Below are positions 31,007 through 37,095 of a stretch of 64,000 bases of DNA, piece by piece. The translations under genes were made by a program, and so were the position numbers. This DNA is from Phenylobacterium sp. (GTDB lineage: Bacteria; Pseudomonadota; Alphaproteobacteria; Caulobacterales; Caulobacteraceae). The stretch lies in NCBI GenBank assembly GCA_018001015.1, contig JAGNIV010000013.1, positions 34,952 through 98,951 of the forward strand, given 5' to 3'. Positions within the stretch are counted from its first letter, which is position 1, and every line of letters begins with the position of its first letter. The notes under the pieces are model-generated. The model had not been told where the DNA came from. It saw only the letters and a program-made list of their open reading frames with translations, and made no database searches.

Positions 31007-34000
31007 TCAGGACGATCCCGCCTGCATGGCGGCGAGCTGTTCCGGCGTGATGCTGGCCATCTGGGTGGGCGTGAAGGCGTCGATCTGGGCGCCGTTCAAG
31101 GCCATCAGCTCGCGGGGCGTGAGCGCGCTGATGCTGGTGATCGAGAGGCTGGCCACCTGGGTCACGGTCAGGCCTGTCAGCTGCCGATCCGTGAAGGATG
31201 ACATCATCGTCGCGTTCAGGCTGTTGAGCTGGGTGGGGGTCAGCGACCCCACCTGGGTCGAGGTCAGGGCCTCGAACTGTGTGGGCTCGAAACCGTTCAG
31301 GTCGGTGGACTTCAGGTTGGCGATCTGGGTCGCGCTTAGCGATGCCACCTGGGTCTCGGTCAGGGCGTCGAACTGACTTTCGCTCAGCGCCCGCAGCTGC
31401 ATCCGCACCAGGCCGCTGAGCTGGGTGACGGTCATGGCGGCCAACTCGGCGCCGGTGAGATAGCCGATCCCGGTGGTGGTCAGCGCGCCGATCTGCTCGG
31501 TGGTCAGGCCGCCGAGCTGGGTCAGGGTCATCTGGGTGATCTGGCTCTCGGTGAGGCCGGTGACGCCGGCGGCCGAGAGGGCCTGGATCTGAGTGGGGGT
31601 CAGGGCGCCGAAGCCGGTTGAGGTCAGGGCCGCGATCTGGGTCGGCGTCAGGCTGCCGACATCAGAGGCGTCCAGCAGGCCGACCTGGGTGGTCCCCAGC
31701 CCCGCCACCTGGGTGGTGGAAAGCGCGCGGACCTGCTCCGGCGTCAGGGCCGCGAACTGGGTCGAGGTCAGGCCGGCGATGTCCTCGGTCGATAGGCCCG
31801 ATATGGCGCCGGCCGACAGGGCGGCGACCTCGGTGGCGGTGAAGGCCGCGATTTGGGTCGCCGACAGGGCCGGGACCTGGTCTGCGGTCAGGCCCGACAC
31901 ACCGCTCGCCGACAGGGCCGCGATATGGGTGGTGCTCATCGCCGCGATCTGGGTGGGCGTCAGGCTGGCGACGTGGGTGGCGGTCAGGCCGCTGACTTCG
32001 GTGGCCGTCAGGTCGGAGAGCTGGGTCTGGCTGAGCGTCGTGAACTGGGTGGCGGTCAGGGCGCCGATCTGGGTGGCGTTGAAGCTGGTCAGCTGGGTCC
32101 GGGTCAGGCCCCCGATCTGGGCTGGGGTCAGGCCGGTGACGCCGGTCGCCGACATGGCGGCCAACTGCGTGGCGCTCAGCGCGGCGAACTGGGTGGGCGT
32201 CAGGGCCGCGACGTGAGTGGGCGTCAGGCCGCTGACCTCGGCCGGCGTCAAGGCCGCCACCTGGCTGGCCGTCAAAGAGACGACCTGGGTCGGGGCGAAG
32301 GCGCCCACCTGGGTGGCGGTCAGGCTGCTGAACTGAGTCAGGCTCAGGCTCGCGATCTCCGTCGAGGTGAGCCCGATGATGCTGTCGGTGGAGATGGCGG
32401 CGATCTGACTCGAGGTCATCGCGCCGAGCTGTTGCTTGGAAAGGCCGGCGATCTGAGTCGCGGTAAGGCCCGAGACGGCCGTGGCGCTCAGCGCGGCGAT
32501 CTCGGTGGGGGTGAAGGCCGCTATCTGGGGCGCGCTGAGGACGGCGACGTGGGTGCTGGCCAGGCCCGCGACGCCGGAGGCCGACAGGGCCGCGATCTGG
32601 GCGGCGGTCATCGCCTGGATGTTTTCCGCTGTCAGGGCGGCGACCTGGGTGTCGGCCAAGGCTGCAACCTGGGTCGTGGTGAAGGCCGCGATGTTCTGCG
32701 GCGCCAGGCCCGCGATGGCCGTGGCCGAGAAGCCTGAGATCTGCTGGGCGGTCAGGCCGGCAAGCTGGGTGGCGCTGAATCCATCGACCTGATCCTCCGA
32801 CAGAGCGGCCATCTGGGTGGCGCTGAGCGCGGCCACCTGGGTCGAGGTAAACCCGCCGATGTCGGCGGCGCTCAGACCGTTCATGGCGCTGGCGCTCAGG
32901 GCCGCGATCTGGGTCGCCTCGAGGCCGGCGATCTGGCCGGCGGTCATGGCCGCCATCTGGGTGGAGGTCAGGCCGGCGATGGCCGGCGCCTTGAGCGCGT
33001 CGATCTGCGTGGCGGTGAAGGCGGCGATCTGGGTCGCGGTCAGGCCGCTCATCGCGGTGGCCGAAAGGGCGGCGACCTGAGACGGCGTCAGGGCCTGGAC
33101 CTGCTCGGTGGAAAGCGCGCCGAGGCTGGTGGCGTTGAGGCCCGCCACCTGCTTGGCGGTCAAACCGTCGAGCTGCGCCGTGGAGAAGCCCTTGATCTGG
33201 TCGGCCGAAAGGGCGGCGAGCTGGGTGGCGGTGAGAGCGTCGATCTGGGTGTTGGTCAGGGCGCCGATCTCGGTGGCGCTCAAGCCGGCCATCGCGGTGG
33301 CCGTGAGGGCCCCGATCTGGCTGGCCTCAAGGCTGGCGACCTGGGCGGCGCTCATGGCCGCGACCTGGATATCTGTCAGGCCGGCGATCTCGGTGGTCTT
33401 GAAGGCGTCGAGCTGGGTGGTGGTGAGCGCCTCGATCTGGTCGAGGCTCAGCCCGCCGATGGCGGCCGAGGTCAGGGAGCCGATCTGGCTGGCCGACAGG
33501 GCTGCGAACTGGGCGATGCTGAGGGCGCCGAGCGAGGTGGCCGTCAGGCCCTTGAGCTGCGGTGCGGTCAGGCCGCCGATCTGGGTCGTGGTCAGCGCCT
33601 CGACCTGATCCCCTGACAGCGCCTGGATCTGAGCCGCCACCAGGGCGCCGACCTGGGTGGAGGCCAGGCCCGCGATGTCCTCGGGCGAGAGGCCGGCGAT
33701 GGCGGTGGGGCTGATCGCCGCCATCTGGGTGGCCTGCAGAGCCGCGATCTGCTCGGTGGTCAGGGCCCGCGCCTGCTCCTCGGTGAACGCCCGCACCTGG
33801 GCGACGCTCAACGACGCGATCTGGGTCGTGGAAAGGGCGCCGAGCTGCTCGGAGGAGAAGGCCGCCAGGGTGGTGGCGCCCAGGCCCTTGATCTGGGTGG
33901 TGCTCAGGGCCGCGACGTCGGCGGTGGAGAGCGCCGATATGGCCGTGGCCGACAGCCCGGTCAGCTGCGCGGCCGTGAGGCTCGCGAGCTGATCGGAGGT

Positions 34001-36757
34001 CATGTCGTCCACCTCTTCGGCGCCGAAGCCCTTGATCTGATTGGCGGTGAGCGCCGCCACCTGGGTCGCGGAGAAGGTGGCGAACTGGCTGGCCGTCAGG
34101 GCCGCCAGAGCGGTGCTGGTCAGGCCCCGCATCTGGGTCGCGCCCAGGGCGCCGAGCTGGGTGGTCGAAAGGACCGCGACCTGATCCTCCGACAGGGCAC
34201 CGACCTGGGCGGTGGACAGGCTGGCGAGCTGGCTGCTGGTAAGGCCGCTCACCTCGTCGAGGGTCAGGGCGCCGATGACGCTGGCGGGCAGGGCCGCGAC
34301 CTGGGTTTCCGAGAAGGCGGCGAATTGGGCGCTCGTCAGTCCGGCCGCCGTGGTCGTGGTGAAGCCCTTGAGCTGGACCGTGGTCAACGCCTCAAGCTGG
34401 GTCGTCGACAGTGACCCGATCTGCTCGGGCGTCAGCGAGCCGATACTGGTGCTCGTCAGGCCGCGAACCTGGGTGGTGGTCAGGGTCGAAATCTGGTGCT
34501 GGGTGAAGGCCGCAACCTGGGTCCCGGAGAGGGTGGCCAGTTCCGGCGCCGTCAGGGCGGTGAGCTGTGTGTCGGCCAGGCTCGCGATCTGGGTGTCGGC
34601 CAGGCCCTGGAGCTGGAAGACCGACAGCCTGGCGATCTGAGTTGTGGTCAGCGCCCCGAGCTGATCGGTCCGCAGCTGACCCATGTTGGTGGCGGTCAGG
34701 CCATTGAAGGCCCCGGGCGTCATGGCGGCGATCTGCGTGGTGGCCAGGGCCTCGACCTGGGCGGCGGTGAAGGCGGCGATCTGGGTGGCCGCCATGCCAC
34801 CCACCTGGGTGGTGCTCAGGGAGGCCACCTGGCTGGCGGTCAGGGCCTGAATCTGCCCGGCGCCGAGAGCCGCGATCTGGGTGGCCGCGAAGGCCGCCAG
34901 CTGGTCGGCGCTCAGGGCGGCGAGGTCGGAGGCGGCGATGCCCTTCATCTGAAGGGCGCTGAGCACCGATAGCTGGGTCGTCTGCAGGCTGGCGGCCTGG
35001 GTGGTGGTGAGGCCGCCGAGCTGGACCGCTGTCAGGGCGCGAACCTGGGTGGTGGTCAGGGCGCCGATGTCGTCGGCGGTCAGGCCGGTGATCGCCGTCG
35101 CCGAGAGGTTGGCGATCTGCACGTTGCTGAGCGCCGCCACCTGTTCGGGGCTCAGGGCGCCGGCCTCGGTGGCGGTGAGGCCGCGGACCTGGGTGGCGGT
35201 CAGCGCCGCGACCTGGCTCACCGACATGGCTTCGATCTGGGTGTCGGAGAGCGCGCCGACCGCGGCGGCGGAAAGGCCCTTGATCTGGGTGGTGCTCAGG
35301 GCCGCGATCTGACTCTCGGTGAACGCCGCCGCCTGGGTTGCGGTCAGGCCGGTCATCCCGGTGGCGGTCAGGGCGGCGAGCTGAGTGTCGGCCAGGGCGG
35401 GTATCTGAGTGGCGCTCAGGCCGCGGACCTGCATCGGCGCGAGCTGGCCCACCTGGGTCACCGTAAGCGCGCCCAGTTGCTCGGCGCTCAGGCCCGCCAT
35501 GTTGATGGCGGTGAGGCCGGAAAGGCCCGCGACCGTCAGCTCCGGAATCTGTTCAGGCGTCAGGGCGCCGACCTGGGTGGCGGTCATCGCCGTCATCTCG
35601 GCGGCGGTCAGGCCCTTGATCTGGGTGGCGCTCAGCGACCCGATCTGCTCGGCGCTCAGCGCCCGGATCTGGCTGGCGGTGAAGGCGCCCATCTGCAGTG
35701 AGCTGAGGGCCCGAAGCTGAACGGCGTCGAGAGAGGCGGTGTCGGCGGCGTCGAAGCCCCGAATTTGGGTGACAGACAGGGCCGACATCTGGGTGGCCGA
35801 CAGGGCGTCGATCTGGTCGACCGAGAGCGCGCCTAGGGCGGCGGGTGTCAGACCCTTGATCTGGGTGGTGGAAAGTGCGGCGACCTGCTCCTGCGAGAGG
35901 GCGGCCAGCTGGCTGGCGGTCAGGGCGCTGACGCCGATCGGGGCGAGAGCGGCGAGCTGGGTGTCGGCCAAGCCCGAGACTTGGGTGGCGGTGAGGCCCC
36001 GGACCTGCTGGAACGACAGCCGGCCGATCTGGGTCGGGGTCAGGGCGCCCAGCTGCTCGCTGCTGAGACTGGCGATACCGGCGGCTGTGACGCCCAGGAG
36101 TCCGCCGACCGACAGGGCCGGGATCTGCTCAGGCGTCAGGGCGCTGACCTGGGTCGTGGTCATGGCCCCGAGTCCGGCCGGGGTGAAGCCCTTGACCTGG
36201 GTGGTGCTGAGCGCCGCGATCTGGGTCGAGCTGAGGGCCTTGATCTGGGTAGGCGTCAGGGCGCCGACCTGGCTGGCGCTGAGCGCGGCGAACTGGTCGT
36301 CGTCGAGGCCGGCGATCTCGGTGGCGGTGAAGCCCCTGACCTGGGTGACGCTCATCGCCGCGATCTGGGTCGCCGAGAAGGCGTCGATCTGGTCCGATGT
36401 CATCGCCGCCAGCTCGACGGCGGTCAGCCCCTTGATCTGGGTGAGGCTGAATGCGGCGATGTCCTCCGCCTCGAAGCCCCTCACCTGGGCGCCGTTGAAG
36501 GCGGCCAGCTGGGCGGCGCTGAAGACGATCTGGCTGGTGGTCAGGGCGCGGATCTGGGTGGCCGCCAGCGCGGTGACCTGCTTGGTGGAGAGCGCCTGAA
36601 GCTGGGTGCCGGCCAGGGCCTCGATCCCCGTCTCCGTCAGGGCCTTGATCTGGCTGAAATTCAGCGCGGCCATGTCGGCCCGGGTCAGGGACTCCAATTC
36701 CTGCCGCGACAGGCCGGCGATCTGGGCCGGGCTGTAAGAGGTGATCGGGGAGGTCAA
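31007..36757 (-). CDS. Giant octapeptide-repeat protein, 1,916 residues, function unknown
   Basis: After a ten-residue start (MTSPITSYSP) the whole protein is one array of 8-residue units with the pattern x-Q-(I/V/L)-x-(A/G)-(L/F/M)-(S/T)-x, for example TQIKGLTA. I count eight full units (11-74), one 7-residue unit (75-81, SQIVFSA) and then 229 units in unbroken register from 82 to 1913, ending GSS. Units 210-217 onwards resemble units 402-409 onwards, a 192-residue duplication. No signal peptide, membrane helix, Cys or Trp is seen. L-(S/T)-x-x-Q resembles a helix N-cap. The start is a TTG with GGGAG upstream. Family not recognised. Confidence 0.85.
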   Translation of the reverse strand: MTSPITSYSPAQIAGLSRQELESLTRADMAALNFSQIKALTETGIEALAGTQLQALSTKQVTALAATQIRALTTSQIVFSAAQLAAFNGAQVRGFEAEDIAAFSLTQIKGLTAVELAAMTSDQIDAFSATQIAAMSVTQVRGFTATEIAGLDDDQFAALSASQVGALTPTQIKALSSTQIAALSTTQVKGFTPAGLGAMTTTQVSALTPEQIPALSVGGLLGVTAAGIASLSSEQLGALTPTQIGRLSFQQVRGLTATQVSGLADTQLAALAPIGVSALTASQLAALSQEQVAALSTTQIKGLTPAALGALSVDQIDALSATQMSALSVTQIRGFDAADTASLDAVQLRALSSLQMGAFTASQIRALSAEQIGSLSATQIKGLTAAEMTAMTATQVGALTPEQIPELTVAGLSGLTAINMAGLSAEQLGALTVTQVGQLAPMQVRGLSATQIPALADTQLAALTATGMTGLTATQAAAFTESQIAALSTTQIKGLSAAAVGALSDTQIEAMSVSQVAALTATQVRGLTATEAGALSPEQVAALSNVQIANLSATAITGLTADDIGALTTTQVRALTAVQLGGLTTTQAASLQTTQLSVLSALQMKGIAASDLAALSADQLAAFAATQIAALGAGQIQALTASQVASLSTTQVGGMAATQIAAFTAAQVEALATTQIAAMTPGAFNGLTATNMGQLRTDQLGALTTTQIARLSVFQLQGLADTQIASLADTQLTALTAPELATLSGTQVAAFTQHQISTLTTTQVRGLTSTSIGSLTPEQIGSLSTTQLEALTTVQLKGFTTTTAAGLTSAQFAAFSETQVAALPASVIGALTLDEVSGLTSSQLASLSTAQVGALSEDQVAVLSTTQLGALGATQMRGLTSTALAALTASQFATFSATQVAALTANQIKGFGAEEVDDMTSDQLASLTAAQLTGLSATAISALSTADVAALSTTQIKGLGATTLAAFSSEQLGALSTTQIASLSVAQVRAFTEEQARALTTEQIAALQATQMAAISPTAIAGLSPEDIAGLASTQVGALVAAQIQALSGDQVEALTTTQIGGLTAPQLKGLTATSLGALSIAQFAALSASQIGSLTSAAIGGLSLDQIEALTTTQLDAFKTTEIAGLTDIQVAAMSAAQVASLEASQIGALTATAMAGLSATEIGALTNTQIDALTATQLAALSADQIKGFSTAQLDGLTAKQVAGLNATSLGALSTEQVQALTPSQVAALSATAMSGLTATQIAAFTATQIDALKAPAIAGLTSTQMAAMTAGQIAGLEATQIAALSASAMNGLSAADIGGFTSTQVAALSATQMAALSEDQVDGFSATQLAGLTAQQISGFSATAIAGLAPQNIAAFTTTQVAALADTQVAALTAENIQAMTAAQIAALSASGVAGLASTHVAVLSAPQIAAFTPTEIAALSATAVSGLTATQIAGLSKQQLGAMTSSQIAAISTDSIIGLTSTEIASLSLTQFSSLTATQVGAFAPTQVVSLTASQVAALTPAEVSGLTPTHVAALTPTQFAALSATQLAAMSATGVTGLTPAQIGGLTRTQLTSFNATQIGALTATQFTTLSQTQLSDLTATEVSGLTATHVASLTPTQIAAMSTTHIAALSASGVSGLTADQVPALSATQIAAFTATEVAALSAGAISGLSTEDIAGLTSTQFAALTPEQVRALSTTQVAGLGTTQVGLLDASDVGSLTPTQIAALTSTGFGALTPTQIQALSAAGVTGLTESQITQMTLTQLGGLTTEQIGALTTTGIGYLTGAELAAMTVTQLSGLVRMQLRALSESQFDALTETQVASLSATQIANLKSTDLNGFEPTQFEALTSTQVGSLTPTQLNSLNATMMSSFTDRQLTGLTVTQVASLSITSISALTPRELMALNGAQIDAFTPTQMASITPEQLAAMQAGSS
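31007..36757. repeat. 24-base tandem coding repeat array
   Basis: At the DNA level the giant gene is a degenerate 24-base tandem array of about 238 units; on the plus strand many units read close to ATCTGGGTGGCGGTCAGG followed by a variable six bases. Units differ by both silent and replacement changes, so the array is old rather than a fresh slippage expansion. All length change appears to have been in whole units apart from one three-base loss in the ninth unit. Long antisense open frames over this region are by-products of the base composition. Confidence 0.85.
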
Positions 36758-37095
36758 TGGGGCGCTCCCGCCGACAAGGCGAGACGACGCGCACCCCGGG
36801 GGGCGGTCAGCTCATCGCTCTTGCACGCGTGGTCCATGCCGACCTTCAATCCGAACGCCTCAACGCGCGCCCGTTAACCCTATGTGCAAAGGCTGTGCCT
36901 GGCGGTTCGCCATGACATTTCATGATGTAAAACAATGGATTGATGCGGATCGGCGCCCCGTTGATCCGGGGCAGGATTTGCCGGGCGGCGCCGCGGCTAC
37001 CCAAAGGCAGGTTGCGCACGCCCGTGCCGGAAACGGGCAAGATCTAGGGCGACACGGTCAGCGCCCCTTCTGGGAGGGCCGCGCCCCGGGGCGAC
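36758..37095. other. Upstream region of the giant repeat gene
   Basis: This 338-base gap contains no convincing gene. A short A+T-rich stretch at about 36905-36945 is the likeliest place for a promoter reading leftwards into the giant gene, roughly 150 bases before its start. It holds the imperfect inverted repeat ACATTTCATGATGT (36914-36927). A GGGAG ribosome-binding site precedes the TTG start. No terminator with a T-run is obvious after the giant gene (30938-31006). Confidence 0.4.

Follow-up and report, generated by a model that had tools for sequence, protein, structure and literature searches.

The HMW1A/HMW1C system pairs a soluble GT41-type enzyme with a large exported adhesin, and the serine-rich repeat glycoproteins of Gram-positive bacteria combine locus-encoded cytoplasmic O-glycosylation, a huge Ser/Thr-rich repeat protein and an exporter of their own. 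Both resemble the arrangement proposed here for proteins built of ALTTAQ octapeptides, but neither is the same; HMW glycosylation is N-linked (to Asn), on an unrelated adhesin with a different exporter, and in the serine-rich repeat systems the repeats, the enzymes and the exporter are all unrelated. A precedent for a cytoplasmic protein of TPRs plus glycosyltransferase that acts on an exported filament protein is FlmG of Caulobacter, which is reported to modify flagellin before export (PMC7591256). The ALTTAQ-linked enzyme differs from FlmG in being a Pfam GT41 protein, and its proposed acceptor is a repeat array. Our preferred reading, to which we assign a probability of about 0.5, is that ALTTAQ proteins are exported, O-glycosylated helical rods and that the copy in the window (the whole stretch of 64,000 nucleotides of Phenylobacterium DNA analysed here) is modified in trans by the GT41 of a paralogue.

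The window gene and the elements needed for its delimitation are the following.

31007..36757, minus strand: ALTTAQ-repeat open reading frame, 1,916 aa, type (group) A (reading frame confirmed, Pfam match, period-8 self-identity)
31025..36520, minus strand: main array, residues 80-1911, with 229 octapeptides and no break in register (unit parse)
36765..36769, minus strand: GGGAG resembling a Shine-Dalgarno sequence, 7 bases upstream of the TTG start (read from the sequence)

A dynamic unit parse yields 238 octapeptides, the number estimated in the initial annotation, and leaves only residues 73-79 (a register break) and 1912-1916 outside the units, which are numbered here as [S/T]1 x2 x3 Q4 [IVL]5 x6 [AG]7 L8. 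Periodicity is clear, with a self-identity of 0.33 at lag 8 versus 0.07-0.09 at lags 1-7, and of 0.33-0.36 at the multiples of 8 from 16 to 56. Cys and Trp, noted earlier as absent, were both counted as zero, and the net charge is about -66 (count of K, R, D and E). The TTG start codon is supported because GGGAG lies upstream and because the ATG, GTG and ATG starts of three orthologues align with it. As DNA the array is degenerate; Tandem Repeats Finder reports it in pieces only, mostly with a period of 24 bases or multiples thereof. Long repetitive antisense frames of up to about 300 aa (plus strand, 35739-36599 and others over 31007-36877) look like shadows of this GC-rich 24-base period rather than genes.

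The gene truly belongs to a repeat family that is known but functionally unexplained: Pfam PF20080 (ALTTAQ repeat, ALTTAQ_rpt) matches 72 stretches of the protein with 761.7 bits (E 9e-236), well above the curated cut-off of 26.4 bits, and NCBIfam gives no match over its cut-offs. To our knowledge the Pfam entry describes a sequence repeat without an assigned function, and an open-access full-text search for ALTTAQ or HeliScrew returned no paper. The earlier statement that no characterised family has this plan is thus half right: the array is covered by a known family, whose function the profile search did not reveal. Matches to leucine-rich repeats, CAAP1, polyphosphate kinase and PHROG entries were taken as low-complexity. 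Leucine-rich repeat proteins have units of 20-30 residues with beta strands, and such a protein does not fit the period of 8 or the strand-free helical model of residues 1-400; a filamentous haemagglutinin, considered for the “heme utilization protein” label of relatives, was rejected with no beta-helix or FHA-type Pfam match and the same residues modelled as helical. A phage origin was rejected as well, since tblastn with residues 1-400 gave no match among 50,697 phage records. Two ALTTAQ proteins (L159:11737-16422 and L160:7490-10588) are publicly annotated as “heme utilization protein”, a name for which we found no support.

ALTTAQ proteins occur in 18 of 101 Phenylobacterium genomes (E 1e-6) and in 6 of 385 genomes spread over the class (E 1e-4). 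The source genome encodes three: the window protein on contig C58 represents type A, a 2,496-aa protein on C13 type B and an 807-aa protein on C50 type C; type D has 1,207 aa. The type A gene has exactly 1,916 codons in four species, whose products are 81-92% identical and align without gaps (MAFFT, residues 1-400 and 717-1916), and shifting the register by whole units lowers identity from 0.81-0.92 to at most 0.38. Type B has 2,496 codons in four species (85-91% identical), and the greater similarity among its units brings the shifted-register identity up to 0.63; type C measures 807, 807 and 806 aa in three species, and more distant type B genes vary in length (1,728, 1,730 and 2,560 aa). 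One type B array (L049:5179-13995) is broken into several frames, by sequencing error or true decay. The dN/dS ratio is 0.16-0.27 for type A (six species pairs) and 0.19-0.25 for type B, and 0.09-0.21 for the neighbouring FadR-type gene. Among close species every unit is thus conserved individually, and the array is free of drift.

The initial annotation recognised neither head nor tail in the protein; alignment reveals both.

36542..36757, minus strand: N-terminal head, residues 1-72, made up of the first 9 octapeptides (orthologue and paralogue alignment)
36521..36541, minus strand: residues 73-79, where the register breaks within the head; F-x-A-A-Q-L follows (alignment, unit parse)
36458..36475, minus strand: FEAEDI at residues 95-100 (also present in group A homologues from other families)
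31385..31408, minus strand: VRMQLRAL, residues 1784-1791, with the tail signature R-x-Q-x-R (alignment)

Groups B and C have the register break at the same place, mostly as V-F-D-T-x-Q-L, and it is also present in homologues from Niveispirillum and Hyphomicrobiales; in group D the alignment shows no such stretch. These two homologues, at 37-40% identity, share both the head (break and FEAEDI) and the tail, with FEAEDF in place of FEAEDI in Hyphomicrobiales L147, and the R-x-Q-x-R signature is invariant in 6 of 6 aligned homologues.

For residues 1-400 AlphaFold2 (21-sequence input) gives a model with pLDDT 94.0 and pTM 0.80, in which about 49 units are represented by 47 helices of 4-6 residues each, spanning roughly unit positions 2-6; nearly every octapeptide of this part is thus predicted to form one short helix. 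AlphaFold2 is reported to be over-confident at times on perfect repeats (PMC11795689), and this caution stands, although the ALTTAQ units are natural and diverged. By sequence, the closest solved chain is PDB 9zem, “HeliScrew4” (120 aa; phmmer E 5e-17 over 103 residues), which from its name and regular sequence is probably engineered. It follows the same octapeptide pattern, but is a short chain in which most of the aligned Gln/Ile are preceded by Asp, Glu or Lys instead of Thr; it is absent among the 50 Foldseek matches listed for the model. Best among those listed is mesothelin (query TM 0.20-0.27), followed by distant armadillo-type solenoids, and none of them is a convincing solved structural relative. 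The solenoid of short helical turns suggested earlier from the bare sequence is supported by the model of residues 1-400 and by the sequence similarity to 9zem.

In Phenylobacterium, the type B gene is followed by a same-strand TPR-GT41 gene in 9 of 9 loci read, and in the source genome, too, a GT41 adjoins the 2,496-aa paralogue on C13. No GT41 was found in the examined flanks of type A (0 of 5), type C (0 of 6) or type D (0 of 3) loci; 14 of the 23 Phenylobacterium ALTTAQ loci read are without a flanking GT41, and the nine with one are all type B. The enzyme of the type B loci matches PDB chains of OGT (UDP-GlcNAc-peptide transferase 110 kDa subunit), which we take to be human, with a phmmer E of 3e-98, and the OGT of Xanthomonas with 2e-84. 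A GT41 of at least 59% identity is encoded in 15 of 18 ALTTAQ-bearing and in none of 83 other Phenylobacterium genomes, and the three ALTTAQ-bearing genomes without it are those with type D, of which one is 70% complete; GT41 relatives with 33-46% identity are present in ALTTAQ-free genomes as well. In the class sample, GT41 (E 1e-130) was found in 4 of 385 genomes, all within the six that bear ALTTAQ.

Scanning a collection of genomes from 84,980 species with a GT41 alignment gave 63 loci (several being the same contigs as genomes of the other samples used), 59 of which are flanked by an ALTTAQ array. Between the GT41 gene and the closest array edge there are 11-377 bases, except in L096 (555) and L101 (1,177), and the array is on the opposite strand in L094, L096 and L101; the four loci showing no array are L073, L095 (525 bases upstream examined), L119 and L121 (30% identity). 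An FkbM/TPR protein is encoded near 33 of the 63 (E 1e-6; 19 if half of the query is aligned) and a UDP-glucuronate decarboxylase near 21 (E 1e-6; 20 if half of the query is aligned). The latter matches PDB UDP-glucuronate decarboxylase 1 (E 6e-123), a hint of xylose or a methylated sugar. No recognisable connection of ALTTAQ with GT41 or with type I secretion came up in the open-access literature searched; the association with GT41, and the Thr pattern at position 3 of ALTTAQ arrays described below, are newly found here.

To one side of the window gene, by an assignment made partly by eye, lie nitrate/nitrite genes and a regulator of GntR/FadR type, and to the other side TonB-ExbBD genes and one that is acetyltransferase-like; neither a GT41 nor a type I exporter was matched in the 64-kb window, and an exporter search of the source genome gave nothing beyond ABC transporters that are 28-47% identical to one query. 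The 2,496-aa paralogue stands among flaF, flbT, GT41, FkbM, UDP-glucuronate decarboxylase and flagellin genes (L009:307-18038), a local flagellar-glycan neighbourhood found in its sub-clade; by its size, TPRs and place, a 597-aa TPR protein encoded by a separate gene there (L009:16245-18038) is probably the FlmG counterpart. A general flagellar role was rejected, flagellin being found in the examined flanks of only 3, and flaF plus flbT of 2, of the 63 GT41 loci.

Export genes are linked to ALTTAQ in other lineages. Among 57 plasmid records with ALTTAQ, 14 were opened, picked for annotation and variety; in 8 of them a GT41 lies no more than 12 kb away, and in four (Pseudomonas asturiensis, another Pseudomonas, Cereibacter and Pseudoroseomonas) the array has genes for a type I ABC transporter and HlyD beside it. 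The same pair occurs in 2 of the 63 GT41 loci (L100 and L106, Roseomonas; L109 has HlyD alone) and in 2 of 12 further loci (L151 and L153), and a type I exporter in none of the 23 Phenylobacterium ALTTAQ loci. In L148:7559-10987, 16 parsed ALTTAQ units lie within a frame that also matches Cadherin_4 (cadherin-like adhesin), presumably an exported context; in L148 the repeat can act as a spacer inside another protein. The surface or secreted role envisaged in the initial annotation is thus backed indirectly: relatives have GT41 and type I secretion genes in linkage, and the L148 array lies in an adhesin frame.

Threonine was counted in loci with a GT41 match of at least 500 aa and at least 20 units; 77 loci were read and 69 passed (those failing were L065, L073, L074, L095, L111, L117, L119 and L121), with duplicate contigs (L067, L068, L079, L080) and repeats of L042 and L044 (L059, L060) omitted. 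All ALTTAQ frames of a locus were pooled, including those of the two-gene loci L150, L092 and L112 and a short reverse frame in L075. The GT41 class at least 49% identical to the enzyme of the source genome is called alpha. Where alpha is the only class (n=55), position 3 is Thr in a median of 72% of units (49-94) and position 2 is Ser/Thr in 48% (22-81), whereas the corresponding values are 5-18% and 71-96% where all GT41s of the locus are other than alpha (n=8, 37-46% identical); loci with alpha and a second class (n=6) have 63-90% and 82-95%. In the alpha-only loci position 3 holds Thr in 71% and Ser in 7%, and position 1 in 41 and 33%. Five arrays (three of type D, L147 and L148) come from genomes, one of them 70% complete, in which the alpha class was sought and not found; there position 3 is Thr in 6, 6, 8, 21 and 19% and position 2 Ser/Thr in 16, 12, 11, 28 and 31%, and the capping position 1 is still Ser/Thr in 70-100%. 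Niveispirillum L152, from a genome with both GT41 classes, has 24 and 29% at positions 3 and 2, and a GT41 in the genome alone therefore need not mean a Thr-rich array. Six plasmid loci without a GT41 in the 12-kb flank, placed in no class (L161, L164, L167, L168, L171, L172), have 8-29% Thr at position 3 (Gln units) and 46-78% Ser/Thr at position 2; the plasmid of L167 encodes a GT41 elsewhere. Two GT41 classes stand beside one array, with Ser/Thr frequent at both positions, in L162:1900-5702, L151, L153, L100, L106 and L109.

On a tree of 40 GT41 sequences (38 of the 69 loci plus two second copies), the labels for GT41 class and site need three changes versus 9.4 on shuffles. The position-2 pattern goes with Rhizobium-type enzymes and, far off, with those of Pseudomonas, Cereibacter and Rhodovastum, with which the second GT41s of L151 and L153 group. 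The five both-class loci included form one clade, which suggests that they perhaps arose as one event; the small rank-test p-values are therefore not independent evidence. Arrays and enzymes are inherited together, which counts against the preferred reading.

On the preferred reading, the window gene product would be a long rod or superhelix with one short helix for nearly every octapeptide, in which Ser/Thr at position 1 would cap the helix, Ile/Val at 5, Ala/Gly at 7 and Leu at 8 would pack, and positions 2, 3 and 6 would face outward. The cytoplasmic TPR-GT41 encoded beside one paralogue would glycosylate Thr at position 3 in many units, and in some lineages a neighbouring type I system would then export the protein, which would form a stiff, sugar-coated fibre at the surface or in a matrix. 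The copy in the window would be a stand-alone paralogue, modified in trans by the GT41 beside the 2,496-aa protein. It is a possible, though unproven, substrate because position 3 is Thr in 50% of its units and well kept, though no GT41 or exporter was matched in the 64 kb. A more specific proposal, which we hold at a little under even odds, is that ALTTAQ arrays are dedicated GT41 substrates with a positional code, one GT41 class acting on Thr at position 3, others on Ser/Thr at position 2 and both-class loci using both, and that they form exported fibres with regularly spaced O-glycans on an eight-residue helical scaffold.

It may instead be that group A, with the window gene, is an unglycosylated structural rod, spacer or ruler and that GT41 substrates are confined to group B and similar arrays. 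The exact conservation of length would suit a length-critical rod, none of the five group A loci read has a flanking GT41, and Thr at position 3 reaches only 21% in L147 and 24% in L152. We nevertheless consider this rather doubtful, as the window protein has Thr in 118 of 238 units (50%) at position 3 versus 36 of 238 (15%) at position 2; about half of the units is the low end of the alpha-class range and less than the 83% of the type B paralogue, but among orthologues Thr is kept in 92% of 354 comparisons at position 3 versus 81% of 108 at position 2. The Thr pattern could also reflect shared ancestry, or a preference of helix N-termini, with no relation to glycosylation. Such an origin would fit the co-inheritance of arrays and enzymes and the way the positional classes follow clades, as well as the low values of L152 at both sites and the high Ser/Thr content at position 2 (79, 79 and 81%) in the alpha-only L049, L050 and L090, each with one GT41 in the locus; we regard it as unlikely, for Thr at position 3 is low in three separate alpha-less places (group D, L147 and L148) with the capping position unchanged.

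That the ALTTAQ protein is a partner or scaffold of the GT41 and the acceptor something else, such as flagellin or a polysaccharide, is suggested by the flagellin, flaF and flbT genes near the linked paralogue of the source genome and by the clustering of glycan-type genes (UDP-glucuronate decarboxylase, FkbM methyltransferase); with flagellin at so few of the GT41 loci, and with Thr at position 3 or 2 by GT41 class poorly accounted for, we find it distinctly improbable. A hypervariable or artefactual array without function might be suspected from the repetition and from the fragmented assemblies of several genomes, and the initial annotation had itself raised an assembly artefact. The exact 1,916-codon gene is, however, found in the assemblies of three further species, and the unit-by-unit orthology over four species, the loss of identity in shifted register and the dN/dS values render such an array very unlikely. 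Glycosylated helical rods, with the window copy modified in trans, are the reading that we prefer over these.

If it is true, bacterial relatives of the animal O-GlcNAc transferase would have a native substrate with a readable site code, an explanation would be at hand for an orphan repeat family whose observed range extends from many Alphaproteobacteria to plasmids of Pseudomonas, and a helical rod glycosylated at regular spacing would be on offer. The association with GT41 and the way the site varies with the enzyme make the function of ALTTAQ proteins directly testable; genomes titled Caulobacter vibrioides carry the GT41-ALTTAQ pair, and the idea can therefore be tested in a standard laboratory species.
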